The notes under the pieces are model-generated. The model had not been told where the DNA came from and did no database searches. It saw nothing but the letters and a program-made list of their open reading frames with translations. Positions 17,745 to 44,540 of a DNA stretch of 64,000 nucleotides are shown piece by piece. Location: the NCBI RefSeq assembly GCF_900156805.1, contig NZ_FTOQ01000001.1, positions 620,001-684,000 of the forward strand, given 5' to 3'. Every line of letters starts with the position of its first letter. Position 1 is the first letter of the stretch. A program made the position numbers and the translations under genes. The stretch comes from Roseivivax lentus (lineage in GTDB: Bacteria > Pseudomonadota > Alphaproteobacteria > Rhodobacterales > Rhodobacteraceae).

Positions 17745-17896
17745 CGCCCGGGGGCCGGTCGCGGCGCATCGAAACGCGGCACAACCCGTCCCGGGCCACC
17801 CGCCGGACGGCGAATTCGCGTCAGGGCCGCGCTTTCTATTGAGTGCCGGTGGCCGGGATGTCATTTCTGTGGTCCACGAGGAATTGGAGGCAGCCC

Positions 17897-18607
17897 ATGG
17901 CGTCCCGCGCCCAGCAGAAGAACCGCGCCGAGCTGATCTGCGCCGCCCTGCGATCGGCGATCCTCGAACGCGCGCTCCTGCCGGGGATGAAGCTGCCCGA
18001 GGATTCGCTGGGCGAGAGGTTCGGCGCGTCCCGCACGATCATCCGCCAGTCGCTGGAACGGCTGGCCGCCGAGGGTCTGGTGGAGCTGCGTCACAACCGC
18101 GGCGCGGCGGTCGCGCAACCCAGCCTCGAGGAGGCGCGGGACCTCTTCGAGCTGCGCGCTCAGGTCGAGGACCTGGTGATCGCGCGGCTGGCCGCGGGTC
18201 TGACGGCGGCGCAGGAGGCCGCGCTCAACGCGCATATCGCGCGCGAAGAAGAGGCGATGAGCGGCCCGTCGGCGATCTCGATCCGGCTGGCCACGGAGTT
18301 CCACATCCTGATGGCCGAGCTGACCGGCAGCCCGGTGCTCATCCGCTATGTCAACGAGATCGGCTATCGCTGCGGCTTCACCCTGTCGCAATTCTCGCGG
18401 CCGCATTCCACGCATTGCGGCATCCAGGAGCATCGCGACATCGTCGCGGCGCTGAAATCGGGCGACGGGGCCGCCGCGCAGGCTGTCGCGCGGCAGCATC
18501 TCGATCAGGTCGCCGCGAGGGCGCAGTTCAACGGGGCCGATTTCAACGGCTTTTCCCATCTCGACGCGCTGGAGCCCTATGCCAGCCCGGTGCGCGGCAA
18601 GGGCTGA
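17897..18607 (+). CDS. GntR-family transcriptional regulator (FCD/FadR subfamily)
   Basis: A 236-residue regulator with an N-terminal winged helix (LPGMKLPEDSLGERFGASRT, SLERLAAEGLVELRHNRGA) and a C-terminal FCD ligand domain. FCD metal-ligand residues are visible in LRAQVEDLVIARL, EFHILMAELTG and the HCGIQEHRDIVAALKSGD stretch. It probably controls the two transporter operons on either side in response to the imported compound or a product. The ATG at 17897 follows GGAGG at 17886-17890. It is convergent with the SnoaL-like gene. Confidence 0.92.
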   Translation: MASRAQQKNRAELICAALRSAILERALLPGMKLPEDSLGERFGASRTIIRQSLERLAAEGLVELRHNRGAAVAQPSLEEARDLFELRAQVEDLVIARLAAGLTAAQEAALNAHIAREEEAMSGPSAISIRLATEFHILMAELTGSPVLIRYVNEIGYRCGFTLSQFSRPHSTHCGIQEHRDIVAALKSGDGAAAQAVARQHLDQVAARAQFNGADFNGFSHLDALEPYASPVRGKG

Positions 18608-18623: not shown

Positions 18624-19046
18624 TCAGGCGTCGATCCCGCGCATGGTCAGGATCCGCTCGGCGCTGTCGTTCCAGACATCCATCTTCACGATCTTGCCGT
18701 TCTCCACCACGAAGCGGTCGACATAGCGGTTGCCCTCGAAGGCCGTGCCGTCGGGCCATTCGCCGTAAAGATAGCCGGTGGAATAGACCACGACCCCCTC
18801 GGCGCCCCGGGCCACGTCGAACTGGCGCATGTCCTTCTTCACCCAGGCGTAGCGCTTGGCGTTGACGCCCGTGGGGCCGGACGGATGATGAAAGACCCGC
18901 CCGCCGGTGAAGGTGATCACCACGCCCTCGGCCATGAAGGTCGCGGCGCGGTCGGGGTCGGGTTTCATCGACGCCTCGAGGTAGTCGTAGACGATCCGGG
19001 CCTCTTCGGGCAGCGCGTCGTAGTCGAGCGTGAGCGTGTCTGACAT
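18624..19046 (-). CDS. SnoaL-like/NTF2-fold protein
   Basis: The 140-residue product has the cone-shaped NTF2 fold pattern: an N-terminal helical start (IVYDYLEASMKPDPDRAATF), the loop VVITFTGGRVFHHP, and a final strand pair with RYVDRFVVENGKIVKMDVWNDS. Such proteins act as small isomerases, cyclases or binding domains. The ATG at 19046 has GGAGAA 7-12 bases upstream on the minus strand; an ATG at 19058 is an alternative. It is divergent from the Liv-type operon and shares the operator region with it, so it probably belongs to the same pathway. Confidence 0.8.
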   Translation of the reverse strand: MSDTLTLDYDALPEEARIVYDYLEASMKPDPDRAATFMAEGVVITFTGGRVFHHPSGPTGVNAKRYAWVKKDMRQFDVARGAEGVVVYSTGYLYGEWPDGTAFEGNRYVDRFVVENGKIVKMDVWNDSAERILTMRGIDA

Positions 19047-19121
19047 CGGGTTCTCCATCGTTGAGCCGATTCGAGACGTGCCACAGATCGGGCGCCGCGT
19101 AATCTGCATGCGACAATTAAA

Positions 19122-19140
19122 TACAAAAATTGCATGCAAT
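19122..19140. promoter_or_regulatory. Candidate GntR/FCD operator in the divergent promoter region
   Basis: ATTGCATGCAAT at 19129-19140 is a perfect 12-base palindrome in the 221-base gap between the SnoaL-like gene and the Liv-type operon. On the minus strand it continues as ATGCAATTTTTGTAT, closely matching the 11334-11348 site (ATGCAATTTTTGCAT). The same regulator, probably the GntR protein encoded at 17897, could control both directions from here. Confidence 0.6.
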
Positions 19141-19267
19141 CTGCCTCATCTCTGGGCAGTTCCGGGGCCGGGGCCGGAAAAACCGTCCATTTTTCGCAGC
19201 GGCGTTTGACAGATTCGGGCCGTCCCGCGCCTCTGGAGGCACCCCTCGCTTCTGTTCACGGAGACAC

Positions 19268-20443
19268 ATGATGCCCAACCGCTTCCCTCTTTCCCGCCGT
19301 CTGCTGCTGGCCGGCGCGGCTGCGTTGTCGCTTGGCGCGGTGCTGCCCGCCCATGCCCAGGAAGACCCGATCAAGATCGGTCTCGTCGCCGCGCTCAGCG
19401 GTCAATCGGCCAAGTCGGGCGAGGCGATCACCCGCGGCATCACGCTCGCGCTCAACAAGATCAACGGCGAGGGCGGCGTGCTCGGCCGCCCGCTGGAGCT
19501 GGTCAGCCGCGACGATGAAAGCAATCCCGGCAAGGGCCTCATCGCCGCGCGCGAACTGGTCCAGCGCGAAGGCGTCGCGGCCATGATCGGCGGGCTCGAC
19601 ACGCCCGTGTCGCTGGCCATCGTGCCCTTCGTCAACGATGCGCAGATGCCCTTCATCGGGCCCTGGGCCGCGGGCACGCCGATCACCCAGAACGGCGCCG
19701 AGGAGAACTACGTCTTCCGCGTCTCGGCGGTGGACGAATATGTCGACGAGGCGATCACCGAATATCTCGTGACCAAGTACGGCAGCCAGAAGCCGGGCAT
19801 GATCCTCATCAACAACCCCTGGGGCGAGTCGAACGAGAAGGGCCTGATGAAGGCGCTCGAGAAGCGCGGCATGGAGCATGCGGGCATCGAGAAGTTCGAA
19901 TCGAACGACGTGGACGTGGTCCCGCAGCTGACGCGGCTGCGCGAAAACGGCGCTGACGGGCTGTTCCTCGTGGCCAACGTGGCGCCCTCGGCGCAGGTGG
20001 TGAAATCGCTCGACCGGATGGGCTGGGACGTGCCCATCGCCTCGCATTGGGGGCCCGCCGGTGGCCGCTTCACCGAGCTGGCCGGCCCCTCGGGCGAGAA
20101 GGTGCACTTCATCCAGACCTTCCTCTTCACCGATCCCGAGGAGCCCTTCTTCAAGGATCTGCAGGCGGAGTTTCCCGAAATCGAGAACCTTGCGGACGTG
20201 ACGCCCGCCACCGGCATCGCCAATGCCTATGACGCGACGCTCCTTCTGGCCGCGGCGATTGAGAAGGCGGGCTCCACCGACGGTCCCGCGATCCGTCAGG
20301 CCATGTACGAGATCTCGGGCGTCGAGGGGGTCATCAAGACCTACGACATGCCGTTCACGCCCGACGATCAGGATGCGCTCGGCCCCGAGGATTACATCTT
20401 CGCCAACTTCGTCGATGGCGAAATCGTCCCGCTCGCCGACTGA
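19268..20443 (+). CDS. Branched-chain-amino-acid-type ABC transporter substrate-binding protein
   Basis: A 391-residue periplasmic protein of the LivJ/Peripla_BP_6 family. It has a Sec signal peptide with an arginine pair (SRRLLLAGAAALSLGAVLPA) cut after AHA, then IKIGLVAALSGQSAKSGEAI, GGVLGRPLELVSRDDESNPG and GLDTPVSLAIVPFVND. The family binds amino acids, amides, urea and other small polar compounds; neighbours suggest a nitrogen compound. ATG codons at 19268 and 19271 are both possible. Confidence 0.92.
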   Translation: MMPNRFPLSRRLLLAGAAALSLGAVLPAHAQEDPIKIGLVAALSGQSAKSGEAITRGITLALNKINGEGGVLGRPLELVSRDDESNPGKGLIAARELVQREGVAAMIGGLDTPVSLAIVPFVNDAQMPFIGPWAAGTPITQNGAEENYVFRVSAVDEYVDEAITEYLVTKYGSQKPGMILINNPWGESNEKGLMKALEKRGMEHAGIEKFESNDVDVVPQLTRLRENGADGLFLVANVAPSAQVVKSLDRMGWDVPIASHWGPAGGRFTELAGPSGEKVHFIQTFLFTDPEEPFFKDLQAEFPEIENLADVTPATGIANAYDATLLLAAAIEKAGSTDGPAIRQAMYEISGVEGVIKTYDMPFTPDDQDALGPEDYIFANFVDGEIVPLAD

Positions 20444-20449
20444 AAATCT

Positions 20450-20517
20450 GCGCGGCGGCTTGTCCCTTGCGCCGCCGCGCGCCCGGTCCCGGCCGCAAGG
20501 CCGGGGCTTCGGCTTTT
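20450..20517 (+). terminator. Hairpins between the binding-protein and permease genes
   Basis: Directly after the binding-protein stop lies a stem with 10-base arms GCGCGGCGGC (20450-20459) and GCCGCCGCGC (20471-20480). A second stem follows, CCCGGCC/GGCCGGG (20488-20505) with loop GCAA, and four T residues at 20514-20517. This arrangement is usual where a transport operon makes more binding protein than permease, through partial termination or 3' end protection. Readthrough must occur, since the permease gene has no other obvious promoter. Confidence 0.55.
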
Positions 20518-20568
20518 CCCGTCCTGCCCGTCCCGTGCGTCCAGACCCAGCCTGATCGGAGCCCACCC

Positions 20569-21444
20569 ATGACCCTATTCCTGACCGCCCTCGTGACCGG
20601 CATCGGCCTTGGCGCCATGTACGGGCTGATCGCGCTCGGTTTCCAGATCACCTATTCGGTCTGTTCCCGGGTGAATTTCGCGCAGGGCTCCATGGTCATG
20701 CTGGGCGCGGTCATGGGCTTCGTTCTGACCGAACGGGCGGGCCTGCCGGTGATCGTGGCCTATCCGCTGGCGCTGCTGTTCTGCGCCTTCATGGGCGTCG
20801 TCGTGGAGTTCTGCCTCGTGCGGCCCTTCGCCAAGCGCGGGTCGGAGGCGTGGCTCATGGCCACCGTCGCGGGCGGCATCCTTCTCGACAACACCGTGCT
20901 CTTCACCTTCGGCAACGAGCCGCGCAGCCTGCCCTCGCCCCTCGTGGAGACGAGCTGGCAGATCCTCGGCACCGGGGTCTATCCGCAGCAGCTTCTCATT
21001 CCGCTCGTGGCCATCGGTTTCGCCGTGGCGCTGCAGCTTCTGTTCCGGCGCACGCGGCAGGGCCGGGCGCTTCTGGCGGTGGTGCAGAACCCCGAAGCCG
21101 CCCGGCTCATGGGCATCAACACCCAGCTGATGATCTCGGGCTCCTTCGCGCTGTCGGCCCTTCTGGCGGGGGCGGCGGGGCTTCTGATCGCGCCGCTCTT
21201 CTCGGTGCATTCGGACATGGGCACGCTCTTCGGCATCAAGGCCTTCGCGGTGGCGATCCTCGGGGGCATGACATCCGCCTCGGGCGTGATGCTCGCCGGG
21301 TTCATCTACGGGCTGGTGGAGGCGTTCGTGACGACCTTCCTCGGCTCCTCGCACACCTACATCCTGACCTTCGGGCTGCTCATCGCCGTGCTCGCCGTCA
21401 AGCCCAACGGGCTGTTCGGCAAGGCCGCGCTGCGGAAGGTGTGA
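20569..21444 (+). CDS. Branched-chain-amino-acid-type ABC permease (LivH-like)
   Basis: The 291-residue membrane protein has the LivH blocks LGAMYGLIALGFQITYSVCS, VNFAQGSMVMLGAV, LLAVVQNPEAARLMGIN and KAFAVAILGGMTSASGVML. It forms the transmembrane pore with the permease portion of the fused protein that follows. The ATG at 20569 starts at the first residue of homology. It ends four bases before the next gene. Confidence 0.93.
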   Translation: MTLFLTALVTGIGLGAMYGLIALGFQITYSVCSRVNFAQGSMVMLGAVMGFVLTERAGLPVIVAYPLALLFCAFMGVVVEFCLVRPFAKRGSEAWLMATVAGGILLDNTVLFTFGNEPRSLPSPLVETSWQILGTGVYPQQLLIPLVAIGFAVALQLLFRRTRQGRALLAVVQNPEAARLMGINTQLMISGSFALSALLAGAAGLLIAPLFSVHSDMGTLFGIKAFAVAILGGMTSASGVMLAGFIYGLVEAFVTTFLGSSHTYILTFGLLIAVLAVKPNGLFGKAALRKV

Positions 21445-21448
21445 TCCG

Positions 21449-23968
21449 ATGACCAGGCTTTTCACCAATCGCGGTCTCGACCTGACCATCCTCGCGCTCA
21501 CCGCCGCGGCGATCCTGTCGCTGGGCCTCATCGGCGGCTACACGCAATTCGTCATCGGCCTCGTGGCGATCTGGACGATCCTCTGCGTCGGGCTCAACGT
21601 GCTGTATGGCCTCACGGGCCTCGTGTCGCTGGGGCAGGTGGGCTTTTTCGCCATCGGCGCCTATGGCCACGCGATCCTGATGCAGGCGGGTTTCAGCTTC
21701 TGGCTGGCGCTGCCGCTGGCCACGGCGATCACGGCGGGCGTGGGCGCCTTGCTCGCCGTTCCGGCGGTGCGCATGGCCGGGCCGTTCCTCGCGATGGTGA
21801 CCATCGCCTTTGCCTTCATCGTGGAGCATCTGGCCATCGAATGGCGCAGCCTCACGGGCGGGCAGAACGGCCTGATGGGCTTCGACATGCCGGGCCTGTT
21901 CGGGCTGAGCTTCGGCGAGCGGGAGCTGGTGGTCCTGACCATTCTCATCGCCGGCGCGGCGCTTCTGGCCTATCGCCATATGGCGGCAAGCGGCTGGGGC
22001 ATGGCGATGGCGGCGCTGCGCGACCAGGAGGTCGCCGCCGGATCGCTGGGCTTCGATCCCTTCGTCACCAAGCTCACCGCCTTTGCCATCGCGGCCGGCG
22101 CGGCAGGGCTTGCGGGCGGGCTTTTCGCCACGCTGATGCAGTTCATCGCGCCGTCGAACTTCCTCTTGTCGCAATCCATCCTGTTCCTCTTCGCGGTGAT
22201 CCTCGGCGGGGCGGGCACGGTCCTCGGGCCGCTCGTCGGCGCGGCCATCGTGGTCTTCCTGCCCGAAATGCTGTCGGGCCTCGCCGAATACCGGCTTTTG
22301 TTCTTCGGCGCGCTGCTGGTGGCCGTGCTGCTGGTCGCGCCGCGCGGCATGGTCGGCACCATCGCGGCCTTCCTGCCGCGCCACCGGGACTCGACGCCGC
22401 CCGCTTCGCGCGATGCGGTCATGGCATTCATCCGCCCCGAAACGCGCGGCGGCCTCAAGGTCGAGGGCCTCGGCATCACCTTCGGCGGGCTGAAGGCGGT
22501 GGACGACGCCACCTTCGACGCAAAACCCGGCGACGTGACCGCGATCATCGGGCCCAACGGCGCGGGCAAGACGACGCTGCTGAACATGGTGTCGGGCTTC
22601 TACGTGCCGGGAAGGGGCCGGATCGAGACGGCGGGGCAGGATATCGCGGGCTGGTCGATGCACCGCGCCGCCCGGCTGGGCGTCGCCCGCACCTACCAGG
22701 CGACGCGGCTTTTCGGCGCGCTTTCGGCCGAGGACAACGTGATGGCGGGCCTGCCGCGGGGCCGGGGCGGCGCGCCGTTCCGCGCGCTCGCCTCGAGCGA
22801 ACGGCGGGCGCTGGCGCGCGGGCTTCTGACGCTGGTGGGCTATGCGGGCGATCCCGCGACGCCAGCCGCCGATCTGCCGCATGTGGATCGCCGGCTGGTG
22901 GAGATCGCCCGCGCGCTGGCCATGCGCCCGCATGTGCTGCTGCTCGACGAGCCCGCCGCAGGTCTCATGGCCGGCGACAAGCGCATTCTCGCGCAGCTGC
23001 TGCGCAAGCTTGCCGATTGCGGCATCGCGGTGGTGCTGGTCGAGCATGACATGGAGATGGTCATGGGCATCTCGGACCGGATCTTTGCGATGGATGCGGG
23101 CCAGCCGATTGCCTTCGACACGCCCGAGAAGGTGCGCAAGGACCCCAAGGTCATCGCGGCCTATCTCGGCGAAGGCACGCTTGATGCGCCGGCGCGCACG
23201 CTGGACTACGTGCCCGGCGCGATGGACCGCCTGATCACCCGCAAGCTCTGCGCGGGATACGGTGCGGCGGATGTGTTGCAGGATGTGGAGCTTCGTGTGG
23301 GGCAGGGCGAGCTCGTGGCGCTTCTGGGCGCCAATGGCGCGGGCAAGTCGACCTTCCTGAAGACGCTGTCGGGTCTCATGGCGCCAAGCTCCGGCGAGAT
23401 CATCCTCGAGGATACGTATATCCAGGGCAAGCCCGCCCACCAGATCGTCGCGCGGGGCCTCGTCCTCGTGCCCGAGGGGCGGCAGGTCTTTCCGGACCTG
23501 ACCGTGGCGCAGAATATCGAGCTCGGCGCCTACAAGCGCCGCGAACAGCCGGGCCCGGAGGAGCTGGAGGCGATCCTGACCCGCTTCCCCCGCCTGCGCG
23601 AACGCATGGACAGCCCGGCGGGCCTCTTGTCGGGCGGCGAGCAGCAGATGATGGCCATTGCACGCGGGCTCATGGCGAAGCCCCGGCTTCTGCTGCTCGA
23701 CGAGCCGTCGCTGGGCCTCGCGCCCGCCATGGTCGAGGAGCTTTACGCCATCCTCGCAGAGCTGCGCGACGACGGCATCACCATCCTGCTCGTGGATCAG
23801 ATGGCGACGCTGGCACTGGCGGTCGCGGACCGGGCCTATGTGCTCGAACAGGGCCGCGTGGTCGCGCAGGGCAGCGCGGCGGAGCTGCAGGGTGACGAGG
23901 CGCTGATCGCGGCCTATCTGGGTGGGAGCGCGGATGCCGAAGCGCCCGAATTGCGGGAGGTTGTGTGA
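21449..23968 (+). CDS. LivM-LivG-LivF fusion: ABC permease joined to two ATPase domains
   Basis: One 839-residue frame carries three transporter subunits in series. Residues 1-315 are a LivM-like permease (LNVLYGLTGLVSLGQVGFFA, AALRDQEVAAGSLGFDPF). Residues 335-580 are a LivG-like ATPase with Walker A GPNGAGKT (368-375) and Walker B LLLDEPAAGL, but the signature region reads LPHVDRRLVEIARAL where the family normally has L-S-Y-G-x-Q, so the key serine and glycine are missing. Residues 592-839 are a LivF-like ATPase with Walker A GANGAGKS, canonical signature LSGGEQQMMAIARG and Walker B LLLLDEPSLGLAP. Permease-ATPase fusions of this family are known, but all three together is uncommon. Linkers are short and no frame break is seen. 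It ends by overlapping the next ATG. Confidence 0.93.
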   Translation: MTRLFTNRGLDLTILALTAAAILSLGLIGGYTQFVIGLVAIWTILCVGLNVLYGLTGLVSLGQVGFFAIGAYGHAILMQAGFSFWLALPLATAITAGVGALLAVPAVRMAGPFLAMVTIAFAFIVEHLAIEWRSLTGGQNGLMGFDMPGLFGLSFGERELVVLTILIAGAALLAYRHMAASGWGMAMAALRDQEVAAGSLGFDPFVTKLTAFAIAAGAAGLAGGLFATLMQFIAPSNFLLSQSILFLFAVILGGAGTVLGPLVGAAIVVFLPEMLSGLAEYRLLFFGALLVAVLLVAPRGMVGTIAAFLPRHRDSTPPASRDAVMAFIRPETRGGLKVEGLGITFGGLKAVDDATFDAKPGDVTAIIGPNGAGKTTLLNMVSGFYVPGRGRIETAGQDIAGWSMHRAARLGVARTYQATRLFGALSAEDNVMAGLPRGRGGAPFRALASSERRALARGLLTLVGYAGDPATPAADLPHVDRRLVEIARALAMRPHVLLLDEPAAGLMAGDKRILAQLLRKLADCGIAVVLVEHDMEMVMGISDRIFAMDAGQPIAFDTPEKVRKDPKVIAAYLGEGTLDAPARTLDYVPGAMDRLITRKLCAGYGAADVLQDVELRVGQGELVALLGANGAGKSTFLKTLSGLMAPSSGEIILEDTYIQGKPAHQIVARGLVLVPEGRQVFPDLTVAQNIELGAYKRREQPGPEELEAILTRFPRLRERMDSPAGLLSGGEQQMMAIARGLMAKPRLLLLDEPSLGLAPAMVEELYAILAELRDDGITILLVDQMATLALAVADRAYVLEQGRVVAQGSAAELQGDEALIAAYLGGSADAEAPELREVV

Positions 23969-25221
23969 TGTCGCTTGATCTGGTGATCCGGAACGCCCGG
24001 CTGCAGGATGGCGCCGCGGAGCAGGATATCGGCATCCGCGGCGGCAGGATCGCGACCATCGCGCCCGGCATCGCGACCGAGGCGCGTGCGCTCGATGCCG
24101 GCGGCGGGCTGGTCATCGCGGGCTTTGCCGACAGCCATCTGCATCTCGACAAGGCCTGCCTGCTGGACCGAGCGGCCAATCCCTCGGGCACGCTCAAGGG
24201 CGCGATCGAGGCGGTGAGCGCGGCCAAGCGCGACTTCACCACCGAGGATGTCTATGCCCGCGGCGCGCGCGTTCTCGACAAGGCCATCGGGCAGGGCACC
24301 ACGCTGATCCGCACCCATGTGGAGATCGACCCCGCCGTGGGCCTCGCGGGTTTCGACGCGGTGCGCCGGCTCAAGGCAGATTACGCCTGGGGCGTGGACC
24401 TGCAAATCTGCGTCTTTCCGCAGGAAGGCCTCCTGAACTATCCCGGCACCGAGGAGCTGCTGCGCCAGGCGCTCGATCAGGGCGCAGACCTCTTGGGCGG
24501 CTGCCCCTATACGGACAGCGATCCCGAGGGCCAGATCGAGCGGCTCTTCGCGATGGCGCGCGAATATGACGTGGATCTCGACTTCCACCTCGATTTCGAT
24601 CTCGACACGAGCTGGCGGCACCTCGACTGGGTGGCGCGCGACGCCATCGCGCATGGCATGCAGGGCCGGGTCGCCATCGGCCATGTCACCAAGCTGTCAA
24701 TGCTCGCGCCCGATACGCTGTCGGACACCATCGCGCTGATGAAGGATGCGGGCATCGCCCTGACCGTGCTGCCCGCGACGGATCTGTTCATGACCGGGCG
24801 CGATCACGACCATGCCGTGCCGCGCGGCGTCGCCCCGGCGCACAAGTTCCACGCGGCGGGCCTGTGCTGCACGGTCGCCACCAACAACGTGCTGAACCCG
24901 TTCACGCCCTATGGCGATTGCTCGTTGCCGCGCATGGCGAACCTCTTTGCCAACGTGTCCCAGCTTGGCAGCCCCGAGGCGCTGGAGGGCTGCTTTGCCA
25001 TGGTCACCGAAAGCCCGTTCCGCCTTCTGGGTCGCGATCCGGTGATCCGCGAAGGCGCGCCCGCCGATCTGGTGGCGCTGCCGGTGCAGAGCAGAGCCGA
25101 TGCGGTGGCCGAGATCGGTCGCCCGATCTGGGGGGTGAAGGGCGGCGCGCTCAGCTTCGAGGCGCCGCAGCCCCGGCTGCACCGGCCCGGCCAGGCGCGG
25201 CCCACGGCGCTGGCGGGCTGA
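23968..25221 (+). CDS. Cytosine-deaminase-like amidohydrolase
   Basis: The 417-residue protein resembles the CodA branch of amidohydrolases. Metal-site motifs are DSHLHLDKACL near residue 54, EIDPAVGL with the upstream TLIRTHVEI, FHLDFDLD, AIGHVTKLSML and VLPATDLFMTGR. This branch hydrolyses cytosine, isocytosine, creatinine-like and related rings. It is the second amidohydrolase of the locus, next to a Liv-type transporter, so it likely opens or deaminates the substrate brought in by that system. The ATG at 23968 follows GGGAGG at 23954-23959; a GTG sits three bases earlier. Confidence 0.87.
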   Translation: MSLDLVIRNARLQDGAAEQDIGIRGGRIATIAPGIATEARALDAGGGLVIAGFADSHLHLDKACLLDRAANPSGTLKGAIEAVSAAKRDFTTEDVYARGARVLDKAIGQGTTLIRTHVEIDPAVGLAGFDAVRRLKADYAWGVDLQICVFPQEGLLNYPGTEELLRQALDQGADLLGGCPYTDSDPEGQIERLFAMAREYDVDLDFHLDFDLDTSWRHLDWVARDAIAHGMQGRVAIGHVTKLSMLAPDTLSDTIALMKDAGIALTVLPATDLFMTGRDHDHAVPRGVAPAHKFHAAGLCCTVATNNVLNPFTPYGDCSLPRMANLFANVSQLGSPEALEGCFAMVTESPFRLLGRDPVIREGAPADLVALPVQSRADAVAEIGRPIWGVKGGALSFEAPQPRLHRPGQARPTALAG

Positions 25222-25223
25222 GC

Positions 25224-25604
25224 ATGACCGAGATCAACCTGCCCGACGTTCTGGCCGAGGTGACCGAGGCGTTCCGGCGCTACGAGGCGGCGCTGACCGG
25301 CAACGACGTGGAGACGCTCGATGCGCTGTTCTGGTCCTCCGACCAGGTGATCCGCTACGGGGCGACCGAGAACCTGTACGGGCATGACGAGATCCTCGCC
25401 TTCCGCAAGGCGCGCCCCTCCAAGGGGCTCGACCGGACGCTGACCCGCACGGTCATCACCACCTTCGGGCGCGATTACGCCACCGCCAATACCGAGTTCA
25501 CCCGCGCGGGCATCGACCGCATCGGGCGGCAAAGCCACACATGGGCGCGCCTGCCCGAGGGCTGGCGGATCGTCGCCGCGCATGTCTCCTGGATGGAGGG
25601 CTGA
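25224..25604 (+). CDS. AtzH/HpxZ-like protein (DUF3225)
   Basis: The 126-residue protein has an NTF2-like fold signature, DVLAEVTEAFRRYEAALTGN, FWSSDQVIRYGATENLYGHD, TVITTFGRDYATANTEFTR and the terminal VAAHVSWMEG. That matches the AtzH/HpxZ family, in which AtzH is the small subunit of the AtzEH amidase of cyanuric acid degradation and HpxZ occurs in oxalurate use. The amidase gene starts only four bases after its stop, matching the AtzH-AtzE pairing. Confidence 0.9.
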   Translation: MTEINLPDVLAEVTEAFRRYEAALTGNDVETLDALFWSSDQVIRYGATENLYGHDEILAFRKARPSKGLDRTLTRTVITTFGRDYATANTEFTRAGIDRIGRQSHTWARLPEGWRIVAAHVSWMEG

Positions 25605-25608
25605 GCCG

Positions 25609-26778
25609 ATGGCCGACGACGTGAACGCCTTTATCGACCGCTTCACGCTGGACGGGGTCGGCGATGGCCCGCTTTCGGGGCGAACCTTCGGCGCCAAGGA
25701 CCTTTTCGACATCGCGGGCCGCGTGACGGGCTACGGCAATCCGGCCTGGGCGGCCTCCCGCGAACCGGCTTACACCACCGCTTCGGCGGTGCGCCGCCTG
25801 CTCGATGCGGGCGCGACCTGCCTCGGCAAGACCCATACGGATGAGCTGGCCTATTCGCTGATGGGCGTGAACGCGCATCACGGCACGCCGCTGAACAGCG
25901 CCGATCCGCGCCGGGTGCCCGGGGGCTCGTCTTCGGGATCGGCGGCGGCGGTGGCCGCGGGCCTCGTCGATATCGGGCTCGGCAGCGATACCGGTGGATC
26001 GGTGCGGATGCCCGCGTCGTTCTGCGGGCTCTGGGGGATCCGCACGACCTTCGGGGCGGTGCCGCTCGACGGGGCGATGCCCTTCACCGCGTCCTTCGAC
26101 ACCGTCGGATGGCTGACCCGTTCCGGTCCGCTGCTGGCCGAGGTGCTGCGCGTTCACGGCTTTGCATCGGGCGCCCCGCGGCGGCTGGTGCTGCCGGTCG
26201 ATCTCTGGGCCGAGGCCGAGGCGGATTGCGTCGCGGCGCTCGGGCCCGCGATGGCGGCGCTGCAGGCGCATCTCGGTCCGGCAATGCCCGTGATCCTGGC
26301 GCCCGAAGGCCTCGCCCATTGGCGCGAGACGTTCCGGGTCTGCCAGGCAGGCGAGATCTGGCAGGCGCTGGGCGATTGGGTCTCGACCCACGATCCGCAA
26401 TTCGGCCCCGGCACGCGCGAGCGCTTCGAGATGGCCGCGTCGATCACGCCGGAGGCCTTCGAGGCAGCCCAGGGCGAAAAGTCGCGCATCGCCGGATGGT
26501 TGGAGAGCATCATCGACCCCGAGACCGTCGTCGTCCTGCCGACAGCACCCGCGCCGGCGCCCCTGCGCGAGGCCGATCCCGCGGCGCTCGACGGTTTTCG
26601 GCTCCGGGCGCAGGCGCTCTTGTGCGCGGCGGGTCTGGGCGGTCTGCCGCAGCTCTCGATCCCGGCGGGGGCGGTCGAGGGCGGCCCGGTCGGGATCAGC
26701 CTCATGGGCGCGGGGGGGGCCGATCTCGCGCTGGTCGAACTGGCTTGCGATGCGGGCCTCGGGGCACTTTCCGCGTAG
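25609..26778 (+). CDS. Amidase-signature hydrolase (AtzE-like partner)
   Basis: A 389-residue amidase with the Ser-cisSer-Lys triad visible: GAKDLFDI (lysine near residue 26), PGGSSSGSAAAVAAG, and GSDTGGSVRMPASFCG. It is shorter than the usual 450-500-residue amidases. Because the preceding gene is AtzH-like, I expect the two proteins to form an AtzEH-type heteromer that hydrolyses a carboxy-urea or ureido acid, but the substrate is inferred from context alone. It is the last gene of the Liv-type operon, convergent with the next gene. Confidence 0.88.
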   Translation: MADDVNAFIDRFTLDGVGDGPLSGRTFGAKDLFDIAGRVTGYGNPAWAASREPAYTTASAVRRLLDAGATCLGKTHTDELAYSLMGVNAHHGTPLNSADPRRVPGGSSSGSAAAVAAGLVDIGLGSDTGGSVRMPASFCGLWGIRTTFGAVPLDGAMPFTASFDTVGWLTRSGPLLAEVLRVHGFASGAPRRLVLPVDLWAEAEADCVAALGPAMAALQAHLGPAMPVILAPEGLAHWRETFRVCQAGEIWQALGDWVSTHDPQFGPGTRERFEMAASITPEAFEAAQGEKSRIAGWLESIIDPETVVVLPTAPAPAPLREADPAALDGFRLRAQALLCAAGLGGLPQLSIPAGAVEGGPVGISLMGAGGADLALVELACDAGLGALSA

Positions 26779-44463: not shown

Positions 44464-44540
44464 GGCCCCGTGGCTCAACTGGATAGAGCAGCCCCCTCCT
44501 AAGGGGCAGGTTGCAGGTTCGAATCCTGCCGGGGTCGCCA
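44464..44540 (+). tRNA. tRNA-Arg (anticodon CCT)
   Basis: A 77-base cloverleaf: acceptor arm GGCCCCG pairing with CGGGGTC, D stem GCTC/GAGC, anticodon stem GCCCC/GGGGC with loop CTCCTAA and anticodon CCT at 44498-44500, T arm GCAGG-TTCGAAT-CCTGC, discriminator G and an encoded CCA at 44538-44540. It reads AGG codons. An AT-richer island begins immediately after it, and tRNA 3' ends are common integration sites. Confidence 0.97.

Follow-up and report, generated by a model that had tools for sequence, protein, structure and literature searches.

It is debated whether an ABC importer must have both of its ATP sites functional, and a gene in a 64,000-nucleotide stretch of Roseivivax lentus DNA (hereafter the window) raises it for the LivG/LivF importers, a large bacterial family: can one permease half and two unequal ATPases, joined in a single polypeptide, belong to an importer that relies chiefly on one of its ATP sites? 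Judged from the sequence comparisons presented here, the pump that contains this fusion probably works mainly through one ATPase site.

The gene (21449-23968, forward strand) is one ATG-started open reading frame of 839 residues without an internal stop and, as originally predicted, it unites LivM, LivG and LivF. Pfam detects a permease domain and two ABC_tran stretches, with a BCA_ABC_TP_C match (PF12399) at residues 553-576 (E 1.5e-13); the LivG profile scores best on residues 336-575 and the LivF profile on 597-826, and residues 598-825 match the ABC transporter ATPase of PDB entry 1ji0 (E 4e-65), which we take to be LivF of T. maritima. The locus has the composition of a HAAT/LivHMGF-type importer (Table 1): two permeases of the PF02653 family, to which RbsC also belongs (residues 34-294 of the fusion and 43-309 of the product of 20467-21444), a LivG-type ATPase with the BCA_ABC_TP_C tail plus a LivF-type ATPase, and a Peripla_BP_6 binding protein within the operon.

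Table 1. Features of the fusion gene, its motifs and its neighbours, in window positions, and the loci of two further groups of triple fusions.
Feature	Position	Strand	Basis or remark
GntR/FCD regulator	17843..18607	+	Pfam; conserved cassette part
NTF2/SnoaL-like protein	18624..19139	-	weak Pfam match below cut-off; conserved cassette part
Substrate-binding protein	19268..20443	+	PF13458; ATG start within longer frame 19130-20443
Separate LivH-like permease	20467..21444	+	PF02653; ends 4 bases ahead of fusion
LivM-LivG-LivF triple fusion	21449..23968	+	ORF, Pfam, relatives
LivM-like permease domain, residues 34-294	21548..22330	+	Pfam PF02653 (BPD_transp_2)
LivG-like ATPase domain and its BCA_ABC_TP_C tail, residues 336-576	22454..23176	+	Pfam and profiles
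Altered LivG signature LPHVD, residues 476-480	22874..22888	+	alignment; Val at second signature Gly position
LivG switch-loop His533, intact	23045..23047	+	alignment
LivF-like ATPase domain, residues 597-826	23237..23926	+	profile and PDB match
LivF signature LSGGE, residues 727-731, intact	23627..23641	+	alignment
LivF switch-loop position, Gln784 replacing His	23798..23800	+	alignment
CodA-like amidohydrolase	23965..25221	+	Pfam; start overlaps fusion stop
HpxZ/AtzH-like protein	25227..25604	+	NCBIfam, 204 vs cut-off 135 bits
Amidase	25582..26778	+	PRK08310 family, above cut-off; gene overlaps HpxZ/AtzH-like gene
Clades B and C loci			L031-L034, L117, L119, L121-L124, L152, L153, L157, L158, L160, L161; L118, L120, L162

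A scan of contigs from 84,980 species returned 225 relatives, of which the best 80, representing 76 distinct loci, were kept. Among these best 80 of 225 are 39 single-frame triple fusions (L036-L074), 63-89% identical to the window protein in the best segment; both domain joins are open and LPHVD is present in every one of the 39. GC3 remains at 0.84-0.91 across all fusion domains and both joins, which, together with the relatives open through both joins, excludes joined frames and base-call errors. The original prediction had proposed looking for frame breaks at the joins, and none was found; it had also allowed for a sequence error should relatives with the same fusion all have a normal first signature, which they do not, and LPHVD is genuine sequence. 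With the same open frame in 39 of 39 relatives, even GC3 and a plasmid record (SC52) in which the fusion is annotated as a single CDS and the motif is read too, the probability that an assembly artefact or mis-joined frames created the fusion is practically nil.

More distant fusions (45-75% identity) extend this group to a clade of 80 loci, window included, whose LivG signatures read LPHVD (67), LAHVD (8), LPHGE (4) and LPHID (1); removal of identical rows leaves 76 clade fusions (63, 8, 4 and 1, respectively). Clade members were picked by fusion and motif and their identity was checked afterwards: all triple fusions read at at least 45% identity to the window protein fall into the clade, the remaining ones being 36-40% identical. 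The original prediction had suggested searching for joint occurrence of triple fusion and LPHVD; fusion and loss of the signature Gly are found together in 72 of the 76 clade fusions thus picked, which have Val or Ile at this position (window included). The hosts of the 39 close relatives are Thalassospiraceae (16), Rhodobacterales (14), Stappiaceae (8) and unplaced Rhodospirillales (1). Counting the window's own genome, searches of the class (E <= 1e-100) and the phylum (E <= 1e-120) place clade fusions in 5 of 385 and 14 of 398 genomes, respectively; one family, searched separately, has them in 22 of 119 genomes (E <= 1e-140), and a sample of the window's own family in 1 of 198, namely the window's genome only (1e-110). 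The motif is also plasmid-borne, in four records from a Rhodobacteraceae strain, Cupriavidus (Betaproteobacteria), Sphingobium and Novosphingobium.

The fusion sits in a cassette consisting of GntR regulator, NTF2-like protein, binding protein, LivH, fusion and amidohydrolase. In 43 loci with flanks of up to 8 kb, counting as homologues proteins at least 30% identical over half their length, we found GntR in 43, the NTF2-like protein in 40, binding protein and LivH in 43 each and the amidohydrolase in 41; in L036-L074 all five non-fusion cassette genes are there in 39 of 39 loci. Twenty more distant loci (at least 28%) have the binding protein and LivH in all 20, the amidohydrolase in 14 and the NTF2-like protein and GntR in 12 each, with some cassette genes elsewhere in the flank or on the opposite strand. 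The architecture foreseen in the original prediction, two unequal ATPases joined to a single permease half while LivH stays separate, finds support in the sequences, a LivH-like gene accompanying the fusion in all 43 and all 20 of these loci. In the CodA-like amidohydrolase, HDDV of CodA aligns to TNNV and HCDE to HLDF, at residues that are presumably a metal-ligand Asp and the catalytic Glu of cytosine deaminase, and both look replaced; TNN or SNN ahead of V/I is found in 66 of 66 relatives at at least 45% in the loci covered, while HLDF was read in the window protein only. The sole tRNA found in the window is a tRNA-Arg (anticodon cct, 44464-44540).

Which parts of the two ATPases depart from the usual pattern? 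LPHVD aligns without gaps to LSGGE in solved LptB structures, and the position of Val479 is, we assume, that of Gly551 in CFTR. The LivG signature departs from the consensus at both Ser and Gly, which is one mark of a degenerate site. Two other marks, replacement of the Walker B catalytic Glu and the RbsA-type loss of the second Walker A Lys, were not found: both residues are kept in both ATPase domains of the fusion and in 76 of 76 non-redundant clade fusions, window included. The alignment bears out the original reading of a LivG part with intact Walker A and B and an LPHVD signature. The LivF part, described there as canonical, is so in its signature and Walker motifs but not at the switch-loop His position, which is Gln784. 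The family consensus L-S-Y-G-D assumed for LivG is likewise too strict, with Ser in just 59 of 120 LivG-LivF pairs from outside the clade and absent from E. coli K-12 LivG; that LPHVD is altered holds nonetheless.

In an ABC dimer, each ATP site combines the Walker A and B motifs and the A-, Q- and H-loops of one domain with its partner's signature, according to the available part of a review (PMC7756269). From this general composite-site architecture, we expect the LivG signature change and the LivF Gln to lie in the same site. Upon head-to-tail closure of the two ATPase domains, a complete site would form from the LivG Walker motifs and His facing LSGGE of LivF, and a degenerate one from the LivF Walker motifs and Gln facing [PA]H[VI]D of LivG. 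Hydrolysis at the complete site would drive transport, and the degenerate site would mainly hold ATP and keep the domains together. The fusion would ensure that one G pairs with one F and prevent G:G and F:F pairs, which matters because such pairs would carry a defect in both sites. The fused polypeptide would in turn pair with the separate LivH as the core of a type II HAAT importer. We consider it fairly likely that this LivHMGF-type core, fusion plus LivH, indeed combines one complete and one degenerate site, the former driving transport.

In favour of this reading, the switch His is called essential in the related ATPase LptB (excerpted in PMC6703430). The switch Gln alone proves nothing in this respect and need not kill a site: at NBS2 of MRP1 Gln and Asn switch mutants retained transport (available part of PMC7756269). 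The weaker site may likewise still hydrolyse, since Walker Lys and catalytic Glu are intact in all 76 clade fusions.

The original prediction held that such asymmetry is not normal in this importer family, and here it finds no support. We assembled 196 non-redundant LivG-LivF pairs, 76 from the clade and 120 adjacent pairs from outside it, including one probably non-HAAT pair (L003), with the E. coli pair read separately, outside the 196. As the pairs were gathered mostly by similarity to the fusion or the LivG profile, best first and not at random, the proportions they give do not stand for the family as a whole: Ser and Gly of the LivF signature are present in 196 pairs, the LivG switch His in 196, the LivG signature Gly in 118 and the LivF switch His in 19. 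Within the 120 non-clade pairs, every LivF signature retains both Ser and Gly, whereas only 58 LivG signatures do so (Ser is present in 59 and Gly in 114); all 120 LivG proteins have the switch His, while LivF has Gln there in 97 pairs, the others having His (19), Lys (3) or Ser (1). Clustering of these pairs at 60% yields 51 clusters with the same tendency (signature Ser and Gly in 51 LivF and 21 LivG, Gly in 46 LivG; switch His in 51 LivG and 4 LivF, Gln in 44 LivF). Gly is also lost from LivG of unfused systems, which read LEALT (L077, L104), LPYAL (L085), LNLYE (L105) and LTPYE (L015/L025). One of them is a second, unfused HAAT in the window's own genome (L025:1-2914; G000:C32, about 69809-71159), with LTPYE in LivG and a switch Gln (TDQ) in LivF. 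The unfused LivG proteins of two Deltaproteobacteria MAGs (L077, L104) and a Dehalococcoidia MAG (L105) read DEVAAG or DEVMAG in the Walker B region, and the LivF beside the eroded LivG (LEALT or LNLYE) has a normal signature. L003, a two-ATPase protein with the signature LSIAN, is of the RbsA type in our reading.

Taken together, this survey suggests a consistent division of labour between the two ATPases of the importer family. All 19 LivF-His pairs retain the LivG Gly, a pattern that fits decay at one shared site, with few independent losses; all belong to two further clades of triple fusions (LSYGG in 16, LPHGA in 3). We rejected fusion alone as the cause of signature loss: 23 non-redundant triple fusions retain Gly (the same 16 and 3, and 4 LPHGE) and unfused systems lose it, so fusion does not predict Gly loss. 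The four LPHGE triple fusions share the LivF Gln, indicating that Gly is compatible with a clade fusion.

Could the site formed by LivF Walker motifs and LivG signature simply be little used throughout the family and erode without functional meaning, the clade having inherited one such loss? LivG Ser in only 59 of the 120 non-clade pairs and the missing Gly in five other HAAT loci (LEALT twice, LPYAL, LNLYE, LTPYE) point that way, as does the moderate conservation of position 479, which is well kept but not exceptional, since 36% of LivG-domain columns are conserved as well or better. However, drift would scatter the motif, whereas the clade has held it over 42-91% pairwise identity: of 57 rows, 52 have Val at position 479, 4 have Gly and 1 has Ile. 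In codons 470-495, moreover, dN lies well below dS in all five comparisons: 13 of 26 codons differ from L036, 1 changing the residue (dN 0.018, dS 0.99); 12 from L038, 2 changing it (0.047, 0.70); 12 from L048, 1 changing it (0.019, 0.73); 8 from L043, 3 changing it (0.077, 0.45); and 17 from L053, 8 changing it (0.241, 1.54). We therefore regard relaxed drift as decidedly improbable. As judged from codons and alignments, the altered signature is a fixed, selected state, the extreme of a family-wide tendency.

Alternatively, LPHVD may be an unusual but fully working signature, with hydrolysis at both sites and a neutral, clade-specific Val tolerated through neighbours such as the fixed H478 and R482. 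Intact Walker Lys and Glu in both domains of all 76 clade fusions, the invariance of L476, H478 and R482 over the 57 rows and the LPHGE relatives, in which the position accepts Gly as well as Val, are in keeping with this. Elsewhere, however, the second Gly is near-universal, present in 196 of 196 LivF and 114 of 120 other LivG proteins, and the remaining losses are likewise found on the LivG side. We rate a working LPHVD as unlikely, though as the better of these alternatives, and continue to favour one complete and one degenerate site.

The order in which fusion and Gly loss arose is less clear-cut. The nearest relative found without the triple fusion, L116, has LivM fused to LivG, a separate LivF and the signature LPFGH. 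In a first tree the outgroup was not monophyletic, and three long outgroup rows (L159, L186, L163) and seven signature columns were dropped before a second tree and an AU test. Both trees nest the four LPHGE rows among the Val rows, which taken literally is a reversal, and contain long branches; a topology that unites the Val and Ile rows survives the AU test (p 0.155), and Gly may have been either kept or regained. A search for nearer outgroups with the L116 bifusion hit 6 of 385 genomes: its own, G381, G475 and G552, whose bifusions were already in the data set, and two with clade fusions. It is possible that fusion preceded the loss of Gly.

One-sided decay of this kind invites a wider reading, in which the whole LivG/LivF family would run on one catalytic site, made of LivG Walker motifs and LivF signature, the other being a loosely constrained structural ATP site, and the clade would have made the split permanent through exchange of the signature Gly for Val or Ile and confinement of both ATPases to one chain. 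We put this forward tentatively, as somewhat short of an even chance.

What the importer carries can be approached through its neighbours. Branched-chain amino acid labels are not earned by the E. coli Liv equivalog scores, which stay below their cut-offs (in bits, LivG 351.9/362, LivF 295/441, LivH 120.9/379, binding protein 76/477), and the gene neighbours suggest another cargo. Our best guess, of low certainty, is that a nitrogen compound of the ureide or N-carbamoyl-amide type is imported, something akin to oxalurate or biuret. An HpxZ/AtzH-like gene and an amidase adjoin the transporter genes; the former's product matches AtzH structures and is the only HpxZ match in its genome, and biuret and allophanate hydrolases are among the matches of the amidase. 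Of 63 clade loci, 23 have a GGT-fold hydrolase in their flanks (17/39, 1/4 and 5/20, two of the last having supplied the queries), its PDB matches including 5hft, presumably the oxamate amidohydrolase HpxW, behind a cephalosporin-acylase entry as top match. The variability of the cargo genes counts against this guess, with HpxZ in 3 of the 43 and 1 of the 20 loci and the amidase in 1 and 4. For the binding protein, most structure matches are to generic binders of Leu/Ile/Val or of amino acids, and they name no cargo. The overlap of the HpxZ/AtzH-like and amidase genes (25227-26778) resembles AtzE-AtzH and HpxY-HpxZ, which we take to be known gene pairs. A urea importer, UrtABCDE, was considered and rejected, the cut-offs being failed for UrtD (297.1/304.1 bits), UrtB (139.7/250.3) and UrtA (58.4/492.75). 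The fusion passes the UrtE cut-off (316.6 vs 285.8), which means little, as it also passes that of LptB (290.5 vs 240) and the scores sum both ATPase halves.

Among known systems, E. coli LivKHMGF resembles the fusion system in its parts, with a binding protein, two permeases and the LivG and LivF ATPases. E. coli K-12 LivF shares the switch Gln (VEQN; signature MSGGE), and LivG, reading LAYGD with the switch EHD, lacks the Ser just as LPHVD does. In contrast, the E. coli genes are separate, the LivG signature Gly is kept, and the annotated substrates are branched-chain amino acids and phenylalanine. Among importers, RbsA and NupO of B. subtilis provide earlier examples of fused ATPases: both are of type II, with two ATPases in one chain and one degenerate site (available part of PMC11466899). 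They lack the second Walker A Lys, whereas the fusion has both Lys and both Glu intact and, unlike RbsA and NupO, includes a permease in the same chain. The exporters TM287/288, BmrCD and MRP1 are similar in that one composite site is altered, in the signature and in some cases also in the H-loop. Replacement of the Walker B Glu, which ranks second in frequency among the changes in human exporters (available part of PMC7756269), is absent from the fusion.

The available portion of a Brucella ABC inventory yielded no HAAT fusion (PMC2821768), and the open-licence literature, represented mostly by listings and the opening lines of abstracts, yielded no description of such a fused, asymmetric Liv-type importer. 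Other close counterparts are clades B and C, which also join LivM, LivG and LivF in one chain and are 36-40% identical to the window fusion, but have a Gly-bearing signature, LSYGG or LPHGA, and His instead of Gln at the LivF switch. An asymmetric fusion with intact Walker motifs and its Gly-bearing fused relatives offer a ready natural comparison and, if our reading is true, the clade would be a natural single-site importer in which to probe how many ATPs are needed per import cycle.
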